NCBI RefSeq assembly: GCF_000166135.1
Contig: NC_014666.1
Coordinates: 2,356,001 to 2,420,000, forward strand
Source of the DNA: Pseudofrankia inefficax
GTDB taxonomy: Bacteria; Actinomycetota; Actinomycetes; Frankiales; Frankiaceae
Direction of reading: 5' to 3'
DNA: 64,000 nucleotides
Shown here: one piece after another, positions 7,960 to 25,447 of the stretch
Numbering within the stretch: position 1 is the first letter of the stretch
How the letters are laid out: every line of letters starts with the position of its first letter
Made by a program: the position numbers and the translations under genes
Notes under the pieces: model-generated
What the model was told of the DNA's origin: nothing
The model's input: only the letters and a program-made list of their open reading frames with translations
Database searches by the model: none

Positions 7960-9578
7960 CCACCACGGCCGACCCGACCGTCACGCCCGCGCGGGCGCCG
8001 CAGGTCGGTGACCTCTACCGCCCGTCGTTCCTGCCGGACCTGCTGATCGCCGCGCTCGGGCGCAACCCGGACCGGCCGGCGGTCTACATCGGCGACGTCG
8101 CGCTCACCGCATCCGAGGTCGCCGCCGAGATCAGCCGGTACGCGCAGGCCTACGCGTCGGTCGGCCTGCGGGTCGGCAGCCGGACCGCGATGCTGTCGCC
8201 GAACCGGCCCGAGGTGCTGTTCGCGATGGGCGCGAACATGATCACCGGCTGCCGCTCGACGTCGCTGCACCCGCTCGGCTCGCTTGACGACCACGTCTAC
8301 GTCCTCACCGACGCCGAGGTCGAGACGCTCGTCGTGGACGAGAAGTTCGCCGAGCGGGCGGCCGAGTACGTCCGCCGGGTGCCGACCCTGCGCCAGGTGG
8401 TCACCTTCGGGCCGACCGATCTCGGCCCCAACCTGCTGGAGCTCGCCGCCGGCTTCGAGCCGAAGCCGCTGAAGGCGCCGGACGTCGGCCCCGACGACGT
8501 CGGCGGCCTCACCTACACCGGCGGCACGACCGGCAAGCCCAAGGGCGTCATGGGCACCTACCGCGGCGCCGCCGCCATGACGAACATCCAGCTCACCGAG
8601 TGGCAGTGGCCCGACGAGCCACGGTTCCTGATGTGCACCCCGCTCAGCCACGCGGGGGCCGCCTTCTTCATCCCGGTGCTGCTGCGCGGCGGCTGCCTGG
8701 TGGTGCTGCCCGGCTTCGAGCCCGGCCTGGTGATCGAGGCCATCGAGAAGTACAAGATCAACTCGACCATGCTGGTCCCGACGATGATCTACGTCCTGCT
8801 CGACCACCCGAAGCTCGCCACCACGGACGTCTCCAGCCTGAAGACGATCTACTACGGTGCCGCCGCGATGTCGCCGACCCGGCTCGTCGAGGCGATCGGC
8901 CGGTTCGGCCCGATCTTCTTCCAGTACTACGGCCAGTCCGAGTCGCCGATGACGATCACTGTGCTGCGCAAGGAGGAGCACGACCTGTCCCGGCCCGAGC
9001 GGCTGGCCAGCTGCGGCCGGCCGGTGCCGTGGGTGCGGGTCGCACTGCTGGACGAGGACGGCAACGAGGTCCCGGACGGCGAGCCGGGGGAGATCTGCGT
9101 GCGGGGCCCGCTGAACTGCGGCGGCTACTGGAAGCTGCCCGAGCAGACGGCCGAGCTGTTCCGGCACGGCTGGCTGCACACCGGCGACATCGCCCGCCGC
9201 GACGCCGAAGGCTTCCTCTACATCGTCGACCGCAAGAAGGACATGGTCATCTCCGGCGGGTTCAACATCTTCCCGCGGGAGGTCGAGGACGTGCTCGCCA
9301 CGCACCCGGCGGTGGCCGCGGCGGCCGTCATCGGTGTGCCGGACGAGAAGTGGGGCGAGGCCGTGAAGGCCGTCGTCGTGCGCCGCCCCGGCGTCACCAC
9401 CCCCGAGGACGAGCTCACCGGCGAGCTGACCGCCCTGGTCCGGGACCGCAAGGGCTCCCACCACGCGCCGAAGACCATCGACTACGCCGACTCGATCCCG
9501 GTCAGCCCGCTGGGCAAGCCCGACAAGAAGGCCCTACGCGCCCGGTACTGGTCCGACACCACCCGCCAGGTGAACTGA
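7956..9578 (+). CDS. Second acyl-CoA synthetase (AMP-forming)
   Basis: A 540-residue adenylate-forming ligase with P-loop LTYTGGTTGKPKG, A5 region FFQYYGQSESPMT, hinge DRKKDMVISGGFNIFPREVED and A10 lysine in PLGKPDKK. Its ATG overlaps the stop of the preceding ligase by four bases, and a strong GGAGGTGAG lies in the 3' end of that gene. The two ligases are only distantly alike, so this is not a recent duplication; they may activate different chain lengths or successive intermediates. Third gene of the operon headed by the binding lipoprotein. Confidence 0.86.
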   Translation: MTTTADPTVTPARAPQVGDLYRPSFLPDLLIAALGRNPDRPAVYIGDVALTASEVAAEISRYAQAYASVGLRVGSRTAMLSPNRPEVLFAMGANMITGCRSTSLHPLGSLDDHVYVLTDAEVETLVVDEKFAERAAEYVRRVPTLRQVVTFGPTDLGPNLLELAAGFEPKPLKAPDVGPDDVGGLTYTGGTTGKPKGVMGTYRGAAAMTNIQLTEWQWPDEPRFLMCTPLSHAGAAFFIPVLLRGGCLVVLPGFEPGLVIEAIEKYKINSTMLVPTMIYVLLDHPKLATTDVSSLKTIYYGAAAMSPTRLVEAIGRFGPIFFQYYGQSESPMTITVLRKEEHDLSRPERLASCGRPVPWVRVALLDEDGNEVPDGEPGEICVRGPLNCGGYWKLPEQTAELFRHGWLHTGDIARRDAEGFLYIVDRKKDMVISGGFNIFPREVEDVLATHPAVAAAAVIGVPDEKWGEAVKAVVVRRPGVTTPEDELTGELTALVRDRKGSHHAPKTIDYADSIPVSPLGKPDKKALRARYWSDTTRQVN

Positions 9579-9776
9579 CCCGGTCCCACCGTTGAACTGA
9601 CCCAGCCCCCGTGATGGTCACGGGCGGCTGGGCCCCTCGGCGCGGCCAAAGGGCGTGCGCGGCAACGCGGCCCACGGAAGGATCTGGGAAACGGGCGCCG
9701 CGCGCGGTCCGGACGTCCGCCCGGTCCATCCACCAAGCTGACCAGCGGTTCCGCGGAACCGCGGTGAGGAGTAGCC

Positions 9777-10088
9777 ATGCCCGTCATCGTCGCGACCATG
9801 ATCCCGAAGGCGGACCAGGTCGACGAGGTCCGCGCGATCCTGGTGGAGCTCATCCCCGAGGTGCACCAGGAGCCGGGCTGCAAGCTCTACTCGTTGCACG
9901 AGGCCCCCGGCAAGTTCGTCTTCGTCGAGGAATGGGCCGACGACGCCGCGATGGCCGCGCACGGCGCCGGTCCCGCGATCGGCAAGATGTTCAGCGCGTT
10001 GGACGGGCGCCTCGACGGCCCGCCCGATCTCGTCTTCCTCACCCCGGTCCCCGCCGGCGACCCGGCCCTGGGCCAGCTGCGCGCCTGA
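9777..10088 (+). CDS. Antibiotic biosynthesis monooxygenase (ABM) domain protein
   Basis: A 103-residue single-domain protein with the ferredoxin-like dimeric alpha/beta fold of the ABM/YgiN family: MPVIVATMIPKADQVDEVRAIL..., then EPGCKLYSLHEAPGKFVFVEEWADDAAMAAHGAG. Members include quinol monooxygenases and heme-degrading enzymes that need no cofactor; many are uncharacterised. Start ATG with GTGAGGAG upstream. It lies 198 bases after the second acyl-CoA ligase on the same strand and may be read as the last gene of that group or from its own promoter. Confidence 0.78.
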   Translation: MPVIVATMIPKADQVDEVRAILVELIPEVHQEPGCKLYSLHEAPGKFVFVEEWADDAAMAAHGAGPAIGKMFSALDGRLDGPPDLVFLTPVPAGDPALGQLRA

Positions 10089-19696: not shown

Positions 19697-21577
19697 CTAC
19701 CCGATGGCCGACGTGGCGGCGCCGGGATCGGCGAGCCGGGCGAGGATGCGGTACGCGTTCGCGCGGTTGCCTCGGGTCAGGAACGGCCGGCTCGCCGCCT
19801 CGGCGACCGCGGCCACCGGCATCAGCGGCGCGAGGGCCGCGAACGCCGCCGCCCGCCGGGCATAGCCGAGCAGCGGGCGGCGCACGTCCCGCCAGGGCAG
19901 GTCGGGCGACGGGCCCAGCAGCTGGAACACCCCCCACCAGGCCAGCGGGGCGTCGCCGGAGATGTGAACCTGCCCGAACTCCACGTGCTCGATGACGAAG
20001 CCGCGCGCGGTCAGCGCGTCGACGAGGTTGTCCGCCGGCAGCAGGTTCAGGTGCTGGGGGATCAGCATCCCGGAGGCCAGCGGCCCATAGGCCCGGAAGG
20101 TCACGCTGTCCGGGTTCGGCACCTCGATGAGCAGATGGCCGCCCGGGCGCAGCGCGAGCGCGGCGGCGTCGAGCTCGGCCCGCGGGTCGCCGGTGTGCTC
20201 CAGGTAGTGGAACATGCTGACCACGTCGTAGCGGCCGGCCAGCGACGGGGCGAGGTCGGGGAACTGGCCCAGGTAGGCGTTCTCGACCCAGCCGCGCCGG
20301 CCGGCCTCCTCGATGCCGTCGCCCAGGTCCAGGCCGTCGAAGACGGTGCTCGGCCAGACATCCCGCGCCAGCAGGCAGAAATGCCCGTGGCCCGCGCCGA
20401 CGTCGAGCCAGGTCCGCGGCGTCGGCGGCACCGAGCGGGCCCGCGCCGGGTGCGAGCCCGGTCCGAAGCCCAGTACCTGCTCCATCGAGTCCCGGCCGAG
20501 CCCGCCGTAGAAGTCGCGGTAGTAGAAGTCGAGGCCCTCCGGCGTCAGCCGCGGGTTCTGGAAGACGTGCCGGCAGTCGGCGCACCGGTCGTAGCGGAAC
20601 CGGCCCGGCTTGACCTGCATGGTGTCGACGCCGACGGTCATCCGGCGCAGCCGGGGACCGCCGCACCACGGGCAGGTGGTCCGGGGCTCCTCCAGGAACC
20701 GCTCGACGCCGGCCGCGAGATCGGCCCGGTAGGCCGCGCGGGCCGCTTCGAGACCGGCCTCGTCGTCGGCGGCGTAGGCCGGAGGTAACGACACCCGCCA
20801 GCGGCCGAGCCGCTCGGTGGCCCGGGTTGGGGCCAGGTCGGCGACCAGCTCGGCGGCGCCGCGGCGCCGAACCAGCGGCGCGGCGAGCAGGTCGGCCCGG
20901 TCGATCCGCACCGGCCCGCCGGCGGCGACGGCGGCCGGCTGCAGCCAGCTGAGCGCGGCCGCGGCGAGCGTCCAGCCGGGCGCCGCCCGCGCCCCGGTGG
21001 CGAGCAGCGCGTCGCGGACCGCCGGGGCGACCAGGCTCGGCGGCTGCCACGCGTAGGCGGCGCGCTGGACGGCGAACCGCTCGGCCCCGGTCCTGGGCAG
21101 TGCCCGCAGCCCCGGCAGCACGGCGAGGGCCGTGGTCGTCGGCGCGTGCCGCTTGAGCACGGCGGTGATCGCGACCAGGTCGGTCTCGCCGAGGTCCTTC
21201 GGGTCCAGTGCGCTGCGGGCGAGGATCTCCCGGTCGACCAGCAAGGCCTGGTAGGCGCCCCGGCCCGGGGTGAGCCGGTTGGCCTGGTAGCTGGTGGTGT
21301 CGACGAGCCGGGCCAGGTCGAGCAGGCGGTCCGGGGTCAGCTGCTCGGGCACCAGGTCGAGCACGTCCAGGCCGTGGCGGCGGGCGTGGGCGCTGGCCGC
21401 GCGCCGCTGGGCCTCGTCGAGGCGGACCCCGCCGACGGTGAGGAAGACGTGCGCGTGGTGCACCGGCTCGTCGGACGGCCCGATGACCGGCAGCGCGGAC
21501 AGCCGGCGCCGCAGCCGGGCGGTGTTGAGGCCGACACCGGCGGCCACGGCCGCCGAGATCCAGGTCCGACGGTTCAC
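19697..21577 (-). CDS. Zinc-ribbon SAM methyltransferase with unrecognised N-terminal region (paralog 1)
   Basis: A 626-residue protein. Residues 1 to about 290 form a region I do not recognise; it begins with a hydrophobic segment (WISAAVAAGVGL) and contains RHGLDVLDLVP, GRGAYQALLVD and AVLPGLRA. A zinc ribbon follows (CPWCGG near 302 and CADC about 30 residues later, then HVFQNP), then a class I SAM methyltransferase domain with motif I WLDVGAGHGHFC near 390, FHYLEHTGDP and LLIEVPNP. Zinc-ribbon methyltransferases of this sort often act on sugars or small metabolites. The whole architecture is repeated in the gene just upstream (21651-23552), and both follow a phosphopantetheinyl transferase gene. 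There is a 73-base gap to the upstream paralog. Confidence 0.75.
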   Translation of the reverse strand: MNRRTWISAAVAAGVGLNTARLRRRLSALPVIGPSDEPVHHAHVFLTVGGVRLDEAQRRAASAHARRHGLDVLDLVPEQLTPDRLLDLARLVDTTSYQANRLTPGRGAYQALLVDREILARSALDPKDLGETDLVAITAVLKRHAPTTTALAVLPGLRALPRTGAERFAVQRAAYAWQPPSLVAPAVRDALLATGARAAPGWTLAAAALSWLQPAAVAAGGPVRIDRADLLAAPLVRRRGAAELVADLAPTRATERLGRWRVSLPPAYAADDEAGLEAARAAYRADLAAGVERFLEEPRTTCPWCGGPRLRRMTVGVDTMQVKPGRFRYDRCADCRHVFQNPRLTPEGLDFYYRDFYGGLGRDSMEQVLGFGPGSHPARARSVPPTPRTWLDVGAGHGHFCLLARDVWPSTVFDGLDLGDGIEEAGRRGWVENAYLGQFPDLAPSLAGRYDVVSMFHYLEHTGDPRAELDAAALALRPGGHLLIEVPNPDSVTFRAYGPLASGMLIPQHLNLLPADNLVDALTARGFVIEHVEFGQVHISGDAPLAWWGVFQLLGPSPDLPWRDVRRPLLGYARRAAAFAALAPLMPVAAVAEAASRPFLTRGNRANAYRILARLADPGAATSAIG

Positions 21578-21650
21578 GGAACCTCCAGCGGGCGGGAGCG
21601 ACTCACTGCGGCCCGGGCCGGCCGGCCACGGGATCCGACGTCGGGAAGCA

Positions 21651-23552
21651 TCACGGCAGCCGGGCCAGAACCCGGTAGGCGTTCGACCGGCGCCCGCCCG
21701 TCAGGTACGGCCGGGCGGCCGCGTCGGCGACGACCATGGCCGGGAACAGCGGCCCGAGCGCGGCCAGCGTCGCCAGCCGCCGGGCCTGCCCACCCGGCGA
21801 CCCGGGCTGGGCCCGCCAGGGCAGGTCCAGCGACGGGGCGAGCCGTTGGCACAGCGCCCACCAGGCGTACATCCCGTCGCCGTCGAGGTGGGCCCGGCCG
21901 AACTCGACGTGCTCGACCCGCAGGCCGCGCGCCGTCAGCGCGTCGACCAGGTTGTCCGCGGGGATCAGGTGCAGATGCTGCGGCGCGAGCCAGCCCGACC
22001 ACAGCGGTCCGTAGACGCGGGCGGAGAGGCTCTCGGGGTTGGGCACCTCGATCAGCAGGTGGCCGCCCGGGCTCAGCGCGGTGATCGCGGCGTCCAGGTC
22101 CGCGCGCGGGTCCCGAGTGTGCTCCAGGTAGTGGAACATGCTGACCACGTCGTAGCGCCCGGCCAGCGACGGGGCCAGGTCGGGCAGCTGGCCGGAGTAG
22201 GTGTGGTCGATCCAGCCCCGCCGGGCCCCCTCCGCCAGGGCCTCGCCCTGGTCCAGGCCGTCGAAGACCGTGGTCGGCCACACGTCGCGGGCCATCAGGC
22301 AGAAGTGGCCCATGCCGGTGCCCACGTCCAGCCAGGTGCGCGGCGTCGGGGGTACCGACCGGGCGCGGGCGAGGTAGCCCGCCCGGCCGGCGTCGCCGAT
22401 GACCTCCATGATCGGTGCGCCCAGGCCGTCGTAGAAGTCGCGGTAGTAGAAGTCCAGGCCCTCGTCGGTGGGGGACGGGTTCTGGAAGACGTGCCGGCAG
22501 TCGGCGCAGCGGTCATAGCGGAACCGGCCTGGCTTGGCCAGCGTCGCGTCGAAGCCATCGGTGACCTTGGTCAGCCGGGCGCCGCCGCACCACGGGCAGG
22601 TGGGCCGCGCCGCGGCGAGAAAGCGCTCGACGCCGCCGGCCAGGTCGGCCTGGTAGATCGCGCGCAGCTCGGCGGCGTGCTCCGCGTCGTCGGCGGGGAA
22701 CGCGTGTGGGCGGGCGAAGCCCCAACGTGCCAGGCCGCCCGAGTCCGCGCCGCCAGGTTCGCCCGGGGTGCGCACCTGGGCGCTGCGGGCCGCCGCGGCA
22801 CCGAGGGCGGACGCGTCGGCGACGAACTCGGCCGCGGCCCGCCGCCGTTGCAGCGGCGCGGTGAGGGCCTCGGCCGGGCGCAGCCGGACCGGCCCGCCCG
22901 ACGCGGCGGCGACGGGCTGCAGCCAGCTGGCCGCCGCCGCCGCGAGCGTCCAGCGGGGGGCGCGGGCCAGCCCACGGGCCAGCGCCAGGTCCCGGACCAT
23001 CGGGCCGAGCGGGCGTGCCGGGTCCCAGCGGGACGTCGCCTGCCGGACGGCCAGCCGTTGCTGGCCCGTCCGGGGCGCGGCCCGCAGCCCGGGCAGCACG
23101 GCGAGACCGGTGGTCAGCGGCGCGTACCGCTTGAGCGTCGCGGTGACGGCGACCAGGCCGACCTCGGTGACCTCCTTGGGGTGCAGCCCCGCGCGGGCCA
23201 GCACGTCCCGGTCGATCAGCAGCGCCTGGTAGGCGCCGCGGCCCGGCGCCAGCCGGTCGGTCCGGTACCGGGCCGGGTCGACCAGCCGGGCCAGGTCGAG
23301 CAGCCGGTCGGGGCTCAGCTCGTCGGGCACGAGGTCCAGGACGTCGAGGCCGTGGCGGCGCGCGTACGCGCTCGCGGCCCGCTGCTGGGCGTCATCGAGC
23401 CGGACGCCGTCGGCCGCCAGGAAGACGTGAGTGTGGTGGACCCGGTCGTCCGAGGGCTCGATCACCGGCAACGCGGCCAGCCGACGGCGCAGCCGAGCCG
23501 TATTGATCACGATCCCGGCGGTCAGGGCCGCTGGCAGCACAGCTCGGTTCAT
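21651..23552 (-). CDS. Zinc-ribbon SAM methyltransferase with unrecognised N-terminal region (paralog 2)
   Basis: A 633-residue paralog of the next gene downstream, alike along the full length, with the same islands RHGLDVLDLVP, GRGAYQALL and AVLPGLRA in the N-terminal region. It has the same zinc ribbon (CPWCGG ... YDRCADCRHVFQNP) and SAM motif I WLDVGTGMGHFC, then FHYLEHTRDP and EVPNPES. It carries a short Ala/Gly-rich insertion before the zinc ribbon that its partner lacks. Its ATG shares one base with the TGA of the phosphopantetheinyl transferase gene (TGATG), so the two are translationally coupled. Conserved catalytic motifs in both copies argue that both are active and may have diverged in substrate. 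Confidence 0.75.
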   Translation of the reverse strand: MNRAVLPAALTAGIVINTARLRRRLAALPVIEPSDDRVHHTHVFLAADGVRLDDAQQRAASAYARRHGLDVLDLVPDELSPDRLLDLARLVDPARYRTDRLAPGRGAYQALLIDRDVLARAGLHPKEVTEVGLVAVTATLKRYAPLTTGLAVLPGLRAAPRTGQQRLAVRQATSRWDPARPLGPMVRDLALARGLARAPRWTLAAAAASWLQPVAAASGGPVRLRPAEALTAPLQRRRAAAEFVADASALGAAAARSAQVRTPGEPGGADSGGLARWGFARPHAFPADDAEHAAELRAIYQADLAGGVERFLAAARPTCPWCGGARLTKVTDGFDATLAKPGRFRYDRCADCRHVFQNPSPTDEGLDFYYRDFYDGLGAPIMEVIGDAGRAGYLARARSVPPTPRTWLDVGTGMGHFCLMARDVWPTTVFDGLDQGEALAEGARRGWIDHTYSGQLPDLAPSLAGRYDVVSMFHYLEHTRDPRADLDAAITALSPGGHLLIEVPNPESLSARVYGPLWSGWLAPQHLHLIPADNLVDALTARGLRVEHVEFGRAHLDGDGMYAWWALCQRLAPSLDLPWRAQPGSPGGQARRLATLAALGPLFPAMVVADAAARPYLTGGRRSNAYRVLARLP

Positions 23553-24388
23553 CAGGCACTGTCTCCGTCCACCCGGTCCTCCGGGCTGATCGCGACCACG
23601 GCGAGGATCAGGCCCTGAGTGACCAGGTACCGGCCGCGCATCGACGTGAGTCGTCGCCCGCCCGGCAGGACCGGGCCCGTCACCAGCAGCTTCGCGGTGA
23701 AGGTGCCGGTCCGTCGTGTCGCGGCGCCGGTGCGTTCCACGTCGCCTGTCGGCCCGCTGTCGTCCGGACCGCTTCCGCCTGGCCCGTGTGCCGCCGGCCC
23801 TTGTGCGGCCGGGCTGGCATCGGCCGGGCGGCCGTCGAGGGTGATCAGCGCGTCCTCGAAGCCCAGCCAGCTCCCGGCCAGCGGGAACCAGGCCTTGTAG
23901 ACGGACTCCTTGGCGCAGAACAGCAGCCGGTCCCAGTGCACCTCGGGCTCGGCCCGGGCCACGGCCCGTACCCAGGAGCTCTCCGCCGGCAGCGCGATCC
24001 GCTCGAAGACCCCGTCCGGCGTCGGACCGTTCGGCTCGGCGTCGATCCCGATGGACAGCACGTCCCCGGCCCGCGCGACGACGGCGGCCCGGTATCCCTC
24101 GCAGTGGGTGATGCTGCCGACCAGCCCGGCCGGCCACAGCGGCTCCCGGTTCGGCCCGGCCAGCAGGGGCGCGGGCGCGACCCCGAGGCGCGCCATCGCC
24201 CGCCGCGCGCACACCCGGCCGGCGGTGAACTCCCGGCGGCGCTTCGGCACGGCCCGGGCGAGCAGCGCCTCCTCGGCGGGGAACAGCTCCGACGGCGACT
24301 CGTCCACGAGCGTCTCCGCCGCGACGGCCTTCGCCGGCACAAGGTCGGCCAGCAGGCTCGCGGCTGCCCCCACTCCTACTTCCGGCAT
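23552..24388 (-). CDS. Sfp-type 4'-phosphopantetheinyl transferase
   Basis: A 278-residue enzyme that transfers 4'-phosphopantetheine from CoA to a serine of carrier proteins. Family signatures are present: GSITHCEGY, SIGIDAEPN (Mg-binding Asp) and FCAKESVYKAW. The FTAGRVCARRAMARLG segment matches the EntD/Sfp group used for polyketide and non-ribosomal pathways. A 40-residue Gly/Pro/Asp-rich insertion near residues 190-235 is unusual. ATG start. It is the first gene of a minus-strand operon with two methyltransferase-fusion genes; no carrier-protein gene is in the window, so its targets are elsewhere unless the unknown N-terminal regions are involved. Confidence 0.88.
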   Translation of the reverse strand: MPEVGVGAAASLLADLVPAKAVAAETLVDESPSELFPAEEALLARAVPKRRREFTAGRVCARRAMARLGVAPAPLLAGPNREPLWPAGLVGSITHCEGYRAAVVARAGDVLSIGIDAEPNGPTPDGVFERIALPAESSWVRAVARAEPEVHWDRLLFCAKESVYKAWFPLAGSWLGFEDALITLDGRPADASPAAQGPAAHGPGGSGPDDSGPTGDVERTGAATRRTGTFTAKLLVTGPVLPGGRRLTSMRGRYLVTQGLILAVVAISPEDRVDGDSA

Positions 24389-24603: not shown

Positions 24604-24677
24604 TGGAGCGGGTGACCGGGATCGAACCGGCATGACCAGCTTGGAAGGCTGGGGCTCTACCATTGAGCTACACCCGC
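24604..24677 (-). tRNA. tRNA-Gly (anticodon TCC)
   Basis: On the minus strand the acceptor GCGGGTG (24677-24671) pairs with CACCCGC. The anticodon stem CCAGC/GCTGG encloses CTTCCAA, giving anticodon TCC, and the T loop GGTTCGATCC is intact. After the discriminator T, CCA is encoded in the DNA (24606-24604). Confidence 0.93.
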
Positions 24678-24950
24678 ATGGTGATCGCGTTGAAGCTTAT
24701 CGCAGGGCGAGGCTCGGCGACGATCTGGCGGTCGTCCCTCTTCTGGCCCGACGTTGTGTTCACAGATCGGGGCGAACCGGACCCATCGTGTAGGGGCGGG
24801 CACCCCCTGGTGACCGTAGACGGCGCCCCGGTGGGGTGACCGTGGTGGCCTGCGGGTGAGGTCGGCCCGCCGGCACCGTCCCGGCCGCTCCGAGGCGCCG
24901 CCTCGCCTGCGCGGATGCCGATCATGGGGCGGGCTTGCCGGACTGCTTCA

Positions 24951-25077
24951 CCTTGATCGAGAACTGCGCAGGAAAAAATTGGACAAATTGGGGCGTGGAG
25001 CGCCGTTTTGGCTGCGCGACGGGCGATCAAGGCCTTCCAGCGGGTTGGGAGGCCAGCCTTGATCATTGGTTGCGCAG
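24951..25077. repeat. Three copies of a 21-base element CCTTGATC-N7-GCGCAG
   Basis: Copies lie at 24951-24971 (+), 25012-25032 (inverted) and 25057-25077 (+). Copies 1 and 2 form an inverted repeat with paired ends and a 6-base mismatched interior on each side, spanning an unusually AT-rich patch (GGAAAAAATTGGACAAATTGG). The rest of 24678-25292, about 600 bases between the two tRNA genes, shows no supported gene. Confidence 0.55.
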
Positions 25078-25292
25078 GGGATTCTGGCCAGTCGGGGGAC
25101 TGGTGGAGGTGGGGGCTGGGGTCGGGCTGGTCGGCGCCGGAGGAGTGGCGGGACCGGGGCGGGCTCCGAGCGCCGGCGCGATCGAGCCGACGCGGCCTGG
25201 TGCCGCGGGTTGCTGGTGCCGCGGGTTGACAGTGGTGAGGCCCGGGCCGCGATCGAGGAGCCACCAGCCCGTAGGATGGAGGCGCAACGCCT

Positions 25293-25365
25293 CGGGGCGT
25301 AGCGTAGTGGCTAGCGCGCCTGCTTTGGGTGCAGGAGATCGGGAGTTCGAGTCTCCCCGCCCCGA
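25293..25365 (+). tRNA. tRNA-Pro (anticodon TGG)
   Basis: Acceptor CGGGGCG (25293-25299) pairs with CGCCCCG (25358-25364). Anticodon stem CCTGC/GCAGG encloses TTTGGGT, giving anticodon TGG. T arm GGGAG-TTCGAGT-CTCCC is intact. Length 73 bases without an encoded CCA. Confidence 0.93.
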
Positions 25366-25447
25366 CGTGCTGGCTCACCGTGTTTGCTGACTTCGTCAGC
25401 TGCCCGGGGGCCGCGATATTGCTCCGGGGGGCGACCCCCGGACCCCC

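Follow-up and report, generated by a model that had tools for sequence, protein, structure and literature searches.

The window analyzed here, 64,000 nucleotides of the 8,815,781-bp chromosome of Pseudofrankia inefficax (positions 2,356,001-2,420,000), encodes a 4'-phosphopantetheinyl transferase (PPTase) followed by two large fusion proteins, here called winA and winB, which carry a methyltransferase (MT) domain behind an N-terminal region of unassigned family (Table 1). Divergent tig-clpP-clpP-clpX genes come next after this set. The locus thus raises the question of which pathway the two MTs serve, and whether the PPTase belongs to it. The initial annotation, made from the sequence alone, had described two paralogs of ~630 residues with an unclassified N-terminal region, a zinc ribbon and an intact MT, the first of them translationally coupled to the PPTase. 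This description holds: both proteins match Methyltransf_23 and contain the CxxC...CxxC signature, and the sequence GCC-TGATG-AAC joins the PPTase stop to the winA start. Only the three closest genomes, G001 and G002 among them, showed this overlap. winA and winB are separated by about 75 bp and share 66% identity. Two to three tandem copies of winA-type genes occur at the PPTase locus in the genus; Frankia nepalensis CN7 (G003) has three tandem fusion MTs after the PPTase instead of two (L161:2909-9183). An ORF in the window at 24671-25378 (minus strand, start MSQHVGAGRLELPISC) lies antisense to a tRNA-Pro gene (25293-25366, plus strand) and is probably spurious.

Table 1. Features of the PPTase/winA/winB locus (window positions) and of the interrupted fusion-MT gene in genome G016
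Feature	Coordinates	Strand	Basis or remark
PPTase (Sfp-type 4'-phosphopantetheinyl transferase, PptT/Npt-like), 278 aa	23552-24388	-	Pfam 4PPT_N 6.3e-30, ACPS 1.7e-13
winA (fusion of reduced GT-A-like membrane domain, zinc ribbon and SAM methyltransferase), 633 aa	21654-23552	-	stop 21651-21653
winB (tandem paralog of winA, same architecture), 626 aa	19697-21577	-	pocket intact except H528N
TGATG stop/start overlap, PPTase/winA	23550-23554	-	GCC-TGATG-AAC
tRNA-Gly	24604-24677		directly upstream of PPTase
winA residues 5-26, N-terminal membrane-type helix	23475-23540	-	AlphaFold model
winA residues 38-160, reduced GT-A-like alpha/beta domain	23073-23441	-	model; no sequence family
winA residues 180-217, helical hairpin, TM-like in relatives	22902-23015	-	model and hydropathy
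winA residues 319-352, four-cysteine zinc ribbon	22497-22598	-	C319, C322, C349, C352 invariant in 53/53
winA residues 361-550, class I SAM methyltransferase	21903-22472	-	Methyltransf_23 E 2.4e-28
G016 split fusion-MT gene	L138:7518-11301		transposase-like ORF 8533-9813 (minus strand), with N-domain ORF and Zn+MT ORF on either side

Judged by their sequences, both paralogs are catalytically intact methyltransferases. They exceed the Pfam gathering cut-off for Methyltransf_23 (E 2e-28 for winA, 2e-26 for winB) and retain the SAM motifs, and of 16 family-conserved zinc, SAM and pocket positions winA keeps all and winB 15, the exception being H528N, which agrees with the earlier view that the catalytic motifs are preserved in both. 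The structures nearest to the zinc ribbon and MT half are the sugar C-methyltransferases MtmC, TcaB9 and KijD1 (Z 18.5-21 over 224-238 residues; best MtmC with Z 21.2 over 238 residues), in which zinc ribbon and class I MT domain follow each other in the same order. There are also differences to these enzymes: winA ends at their residue 267-268, so that the C-terminal domain of the 394-419-residue targets is absent, Methyltransf_13 of Pfam is matched by neither winA nor winB, and the N-terminal membrane domain is an extra feature. A weak profile alignment (E 0.008, probability 5%) pairs H478 and H526/H528 with histidines that are conserved in Methyltransf_13-type MTs. On the basis of conservation and of this weak C3-methyltransferase alignment, we regard H474, H478 and H526 as putative catalytic residues.

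The N-terminal region had been reported as ~290 unrecognized residues. Residues 1-290 of winA and winB have no counterpart among the Pfam and NCBIfam families, the Pfam matches of 53 homologs include no family for the region, and a PDB sequence search with it gave nothing usable; its extent can be refined, as the AlphaFold model of winA (pLDDT 90 for the whole protein, 93.6 for residues 1-258 alone) predicts a unit of ~258 residues followed by a disordered linker to ~288. In this unit, a TM-like helix precedes an alpha/beta domain (38-160), which is followed by a helical hairpin (180-217) and by a long helix to residue 257. Hydropathy peaks of at least 1.4 occur at the first helix (residues 5-26) in relatives, but not in winA itself. 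Structural searches with the N-domain alone return almost only GT-A enzymes, and all of the top matches are of this kind. Hyaluronan synthases lead the list (Z 10.6, 236 aligned residues, identity 3%), and the top Foldseek matches (best E 0.011) are mannosyl-3-phosphoglycerate synthase, glucosyl-3-phosphoglycerate synthase, RmlT, TarP and similar proteins. The predicted fold of residues 2-257, with helix, alpha/beta core and hairpin, resembles that of hyaluronan synthase and related membrane GT2 synthases, but the core of the N-domain is much smaller and has no sequence-profile match to these enzymes; hhalign against the 13 GT2s of this genome reached a probability of only 0.05. Among the conserved columns no DXD motif is present: the near-invariant ones hold a single aspartate, D73, and only P76, P213 and R236 are invariant. 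The earlier suggestion of a glycosyltransferase-like module therefore fits the predicted fold and probably not the activity, since a GT-like fold without DXD is unlikely to represent an active glycosyltransferase (GT). According to the model, the domain is probably a reduced, non-catalytic GT-A-like membrane domain that lacks sequence homology to GTs. For a role as carrier-protein partner, also proposed previously, no evidence was found.

The genomic distribution of the family provides the pathway context. In total, 80 MT loci were found among 84,980 scanned species genomes. Outside the Frankiaceae, the MT adjoins the GT1-type glycosyltransferase of a Pfa-like operon with the order PKS1-PKS2-ACP-hydrolase-GT-MT at 50 of 58 loci; at the other eight no operon lies within reach, and for three of these (L041, L055, L073) none is nearby on long contigs. 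P. inefficax has such an operon as well (L133; chromosome positions 1,523,000-1,541,742), 0.84 Mb away from winA and winB. Its PKS1 has the domain order NMO(PfaD)-KS-AT-ACP-KR with several ACPs, and its PKS2 the order KS-AT-DH-PPTase, in which the C-terminal PPTase domain keeps the GID and WAAKExxxK motifs; an ACP, a hydrolase, an MGT-type GT and an MT follow. This fits the Type M layout, a PfaD-PfaA fusion and a PfaBC with PPTase domain, as far as it is described in the accessible passages of PMC3098273 and PMC13291983. According to these passages, the Type M secondary lipid synthase is conserved in Frankia ACN14a, CcI3, and EAN1pec and its product is uncharacterised (Shulse and Allen, 2011; PMC3098273), and Renibacterium has the PfaD-A and PfaBC-PPTase fusions too (PMC13291983). 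The layout of the Type M synthase, as given there, is the same as that of the home operon of this MT family; the same passages make no mention of a GT-linked fusion MT, of its degeneration in Frankiaceae or of relocated copies. The link to a small-molecule pathway suspected in the initial annotation is thereby borne out for the family, whose usual home is a lipid/polyketide operon. The idea of a free-standing system of PPTase and MTs is not supported, since the family usually resides in this Pfa-type PKS-ACP-hydrolase-GT operon and PPTase adjacency is confined to one genus.

At eight Streptomyces/Pseudonocardiales loci examined, the same operon slot is occupied by an MT-only protein of 348-357 residues, which indicates that the N-domain is dispensable for the MT as such. 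The finding also bears on the proposal that the N-terminal module is an active GT and that winA and winB are bifunctional glycosyl- and methyltransferases. We consider this very improbable in spite of the GT-A/membrane-synthase-like predicted fold and the GT-A enzymes among the top Foldseek matches, because the conserved columns lack the D-x-D, the alpha/beta part of ~125 residues is well below the size of the matched GT-A domains, the operon already has its GT1, and proteins without the N-domain fill the same slot in many actinobacteria. Three Frankiaceae genomes (G009, G010, which is 63% complete, and G013) contain neither the MT nor the operon GT, and this joint absence ties the two together.

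Several observations concern the surroundings of the family. Two genomes of genus g3 have only a partial match to the operon GT (residues 2-278 or 2-287; G018:C132:13455-14270 and G021:C71:18230-19075) and lack the MT family altogether, so that their Type M operon seems to be decaying. At 22 loci a further related gene of ~300 codons is found nearby, mostly just after the MT (for example L051:11791-12663, L017:11788-12738, and L018:5860-6801); the L051 protein matches GHMP kinases (E 8.6e-8) and the others do so barely or not, so that the gene may encode a sugar kinase acting in this pathway. In Polyangiaceae (Myxococcota), MT family and surrounding operon are both present (L046:10001-11770 in a Byssovorax MAG, and L075), a distribution that points to horizontal transfer between phyla; the gene after the MT in L046 encodes an LCM-type methyltransferase. 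In a genome of another family of the class (G036), the operon GT is followed by a tandem cluster of four MT-only members (L169:5147-11067), two of them with a reported in-frame stop inside the match. With regard to the product, the heterocyst glycolipid (hgl) pathway of cyanobacteria is a parallel, as there a Pfa-related PKS, a glycosyltransferase and a PPTase yield a glycolipid in a nitrogen fixer (see PMC3098273); relatives of the operon described here, however, often occur in non-fixing Streptomyces and Pseudonocardiaceae. The known envelope of the Frankia vesicle is hopanoid (PMC12501873), and a literature search found no link of the operon to vesicle envelope or symbiosis.

Within the Frankiaceae, the MT that remained in the operon has lost its putative active site. 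In 17 genomes H474 (replaced by G, D, or N), H478 (by R), Q525 and H526 are lost, and an 18th genome (G015) shows a partial loss with H416R, H478G and Q525R. All separate copies and all copies from outside the family are intact at the 16 positions apart from single changes, namely H528N in winB and several relatives and G413A in one Streptomyces. Additional losses in the operon copy differ by genus, with H416S and D434G in nearly all members of the genus of P. inefficax and G413R in the genus of G012, G016, G019, and G022, and this pattern suggests that the pocket was lost first and SAM binding later and independently. Of the 18 genomes with a degenerate operon copy, 17 contain an intact copy elsewhere. 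In G007 the separate copy is visible only as a contig-end MT half with intact motif, and in G016, a Frankia genome of 5.43 Mb, it is split by a transposase-like ORF.

Selection on the two halves has changed along with these losses. In pairwise comparisons (the pairs are not independent), degenerate operon copies are on average more similar in the N-domain than in the MT (74 vs. 61% identity; N-domain higher in 53 of 55 pairs), whereas intact copies at the tig locus (57 vs. 68%; 6/66) and operon copies outside Frankiaceae (40 vs. 60%; 0/136) show the reverse. For matched species, the N-domain was the more conserved half in 40/45 pairs of operon copies vs. 6/45 pairs of separate copies. The constraint on the Frankiaceae operon copy has, as judged from these sequences, flipped from the MT half to the N-domain. 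Its dN/dS values of 0.05-0.19 (N-domain) and 0.08-0.31 (MT) indicate maintained proteins under purifying selection; the N-domain of the separate copies evolves faster (0.34-0.37). Decaying pseudogenes are disfavoured as an explanation of the operon copies, because the low ratios extend over both domains.

How the intact copies came to lie outside the operon is indicated by G011, which has two intact tandem MTs in its operon and none found elsewhere in the genome. In a careful tree of 36 rows, its copy 1 groups with the degenerate operon clade (support 99/97) and its copy 2 with winA/winB and the copies of the tig locus (96/93). Joining both G011 copies costs 43.5 log-likelihood units, and their origin by a recent tandem duplication was rejected (AU p 5e-5). 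Since the two copies are split across clades, the window genes appear to go back to a second MT of the operon, which left it. The simplest reading, for a step that rests on one metagenome-assembled genome (G011), would be that the ancestral operon had two MTs, of which the second was transferred to the tig site and remained catalytic, whereas the first kept its place and became inactive. winA and winB both fall into a genus-specific clade of the PPTase locus, and a third intact MT type of P. inefficax (L135), located away from the operon, forms a clade of its own.

We propose, with a probability of roughly 0.6, that winA and winB are relocated, catalytically intact descendants of the second Type M operon MT and act in trans for that pathway. 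Family membership, operon association, degeneration of the operon copy, flipped constraint and tree topology can be read from sequence comparison; from these we infer the substrate, the supply in trans and the docking role as follows. In the ancestor of most Frankiaceae, the second operon MT would have moved to the site beside tig-clpP-clpX, and in the genus of this strain it would have been duplicated and come under the PPTase. The PKS pair would build a long chain on its own ACPs, and the stand-alone ACP, the hydrolase and the GT1 would mediate chain release and glycosylation. The fusion protein might then dock the (glyco)lipid through its membrane-associated pseudo-GT domain, allowing the zinc-ribbon MT domain of winA or winB to methylate the pathway glycolipid in trans, plausibly on the sugar. 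The copy retained in the operon may persist as a partner without catalytic activity, with the stronger selection acting on its N-domain.

The substrate of winA and winB could, however, have changed from that of the operon MT after relocation. A rival reading holds that both left the lipid pathway and now methylate something else, for example a different metabolite that is carrier-bound or located in the membrane; the linked PPTase would then be a sign of the new pathway. Their distance from the operon, the faster evolution of the N-domain (dN/dS 0.34-0.37 vs. 0.05-0.19), the two to three tandem copies in the genus and the H528N shared by winB and several relatives would all fit this reading. 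We nevertheless regard such a neofunctionalization as doubtful, because an intact separate and a degenerate operon copy coexist in nearly all genomes, G009, the incomplete G010 and G013 are devoid of both the MT and the operon GT, and no other biosynthetic gene adjoins winA and winB.

The role of the PPTase can be weighed separately. It contains both the 4PPT_N and the ACPS domain with the catalytic motifs GID (at 114) and KE(S)xxK (KES at 160) and thus belongs to the Sfp/PptT type. It scores below the curated NCBIfam cut-offs of the PptT/Npt models (241.5 vs. 370 and 230.9 vs. 365 bits; Npt E 5.9e-72), and its class is assigned at the superfamily level only. In each of the eight genomes of the genus (G000-G007), a winA-type gene comes immediately after the PPTase, in three cases at a contig end, so that the adjacency extends beyond this strain but not outside the genus: the trio is a genus-level linkage. 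In other genera of the Frankiaceae the PPTase lies elsewhere, away from the MT. As most Frankiaceae genomes encode one 4PPT_N protein, the counterpart of the window PPTase, this enzyme is probably a general PPTase that is merely co-transcribed with the MTs. A PPTase dedicated to the Type M PKS is disfavoured, both because a PPTase domain with intact motifs is already built into PKS2 of this genome and because the window enzyme is the sole 4PPT_N match in most relatives. These points, the differing location in other genera and the tRNA-Gly gene directly upstream somewhat favour a fortuitous neighbourhood, in which a general Sfp-type PPTase landed beside the MTs by rearrangement near tRNA genes and co-transcription has no specific meaning, although the adjacency in all eight genomes of the genus and the stop/start overlap in three speak against pure chance. 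This explanation concerns the PPTase only and is compatible with the proposed origin and function of the MTs. The linkage may serve the co-expression of carrier activation and methylation, and it may equally be incidental. Quite tentatively, one could envisage a split enzyme-pseudoenzyme system, in which the pseudo-GT domain of the dead operon MT is an essential scaffold for PKS and GT and the relocated paralogs, co-expressed with the general PPTase in this genus, catalyze in trans, tuning carrier activation and lipid methylation together.

The Type M operon and each of the catalytic domain classes are of already known kinds. New relative to the searched passages, which leave most subscription journals outside, are the fusion family, its degeneration with flipped constraint, and the relocation. 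If winA and winB act as proposed, a widespread unclassified domain of ~250 residues and seemingly orphan fusion MTs would gain a home pathway, and a tailoring enzyme would be added to the Type M lipid synthase, an orphan system that is conserved among nitrogen-fixing Frankia. Annotation bound to the gene cluster would miss this working methyltransferase, since it is encoded 0.84 Mb away from its pathway. Moreover, the family represents a natural experiment, in which selection on a single domain fusion appears to have flipped from the catalytic to the uncharacterized half, and this flip opens the function of the N-domain to direct testing.
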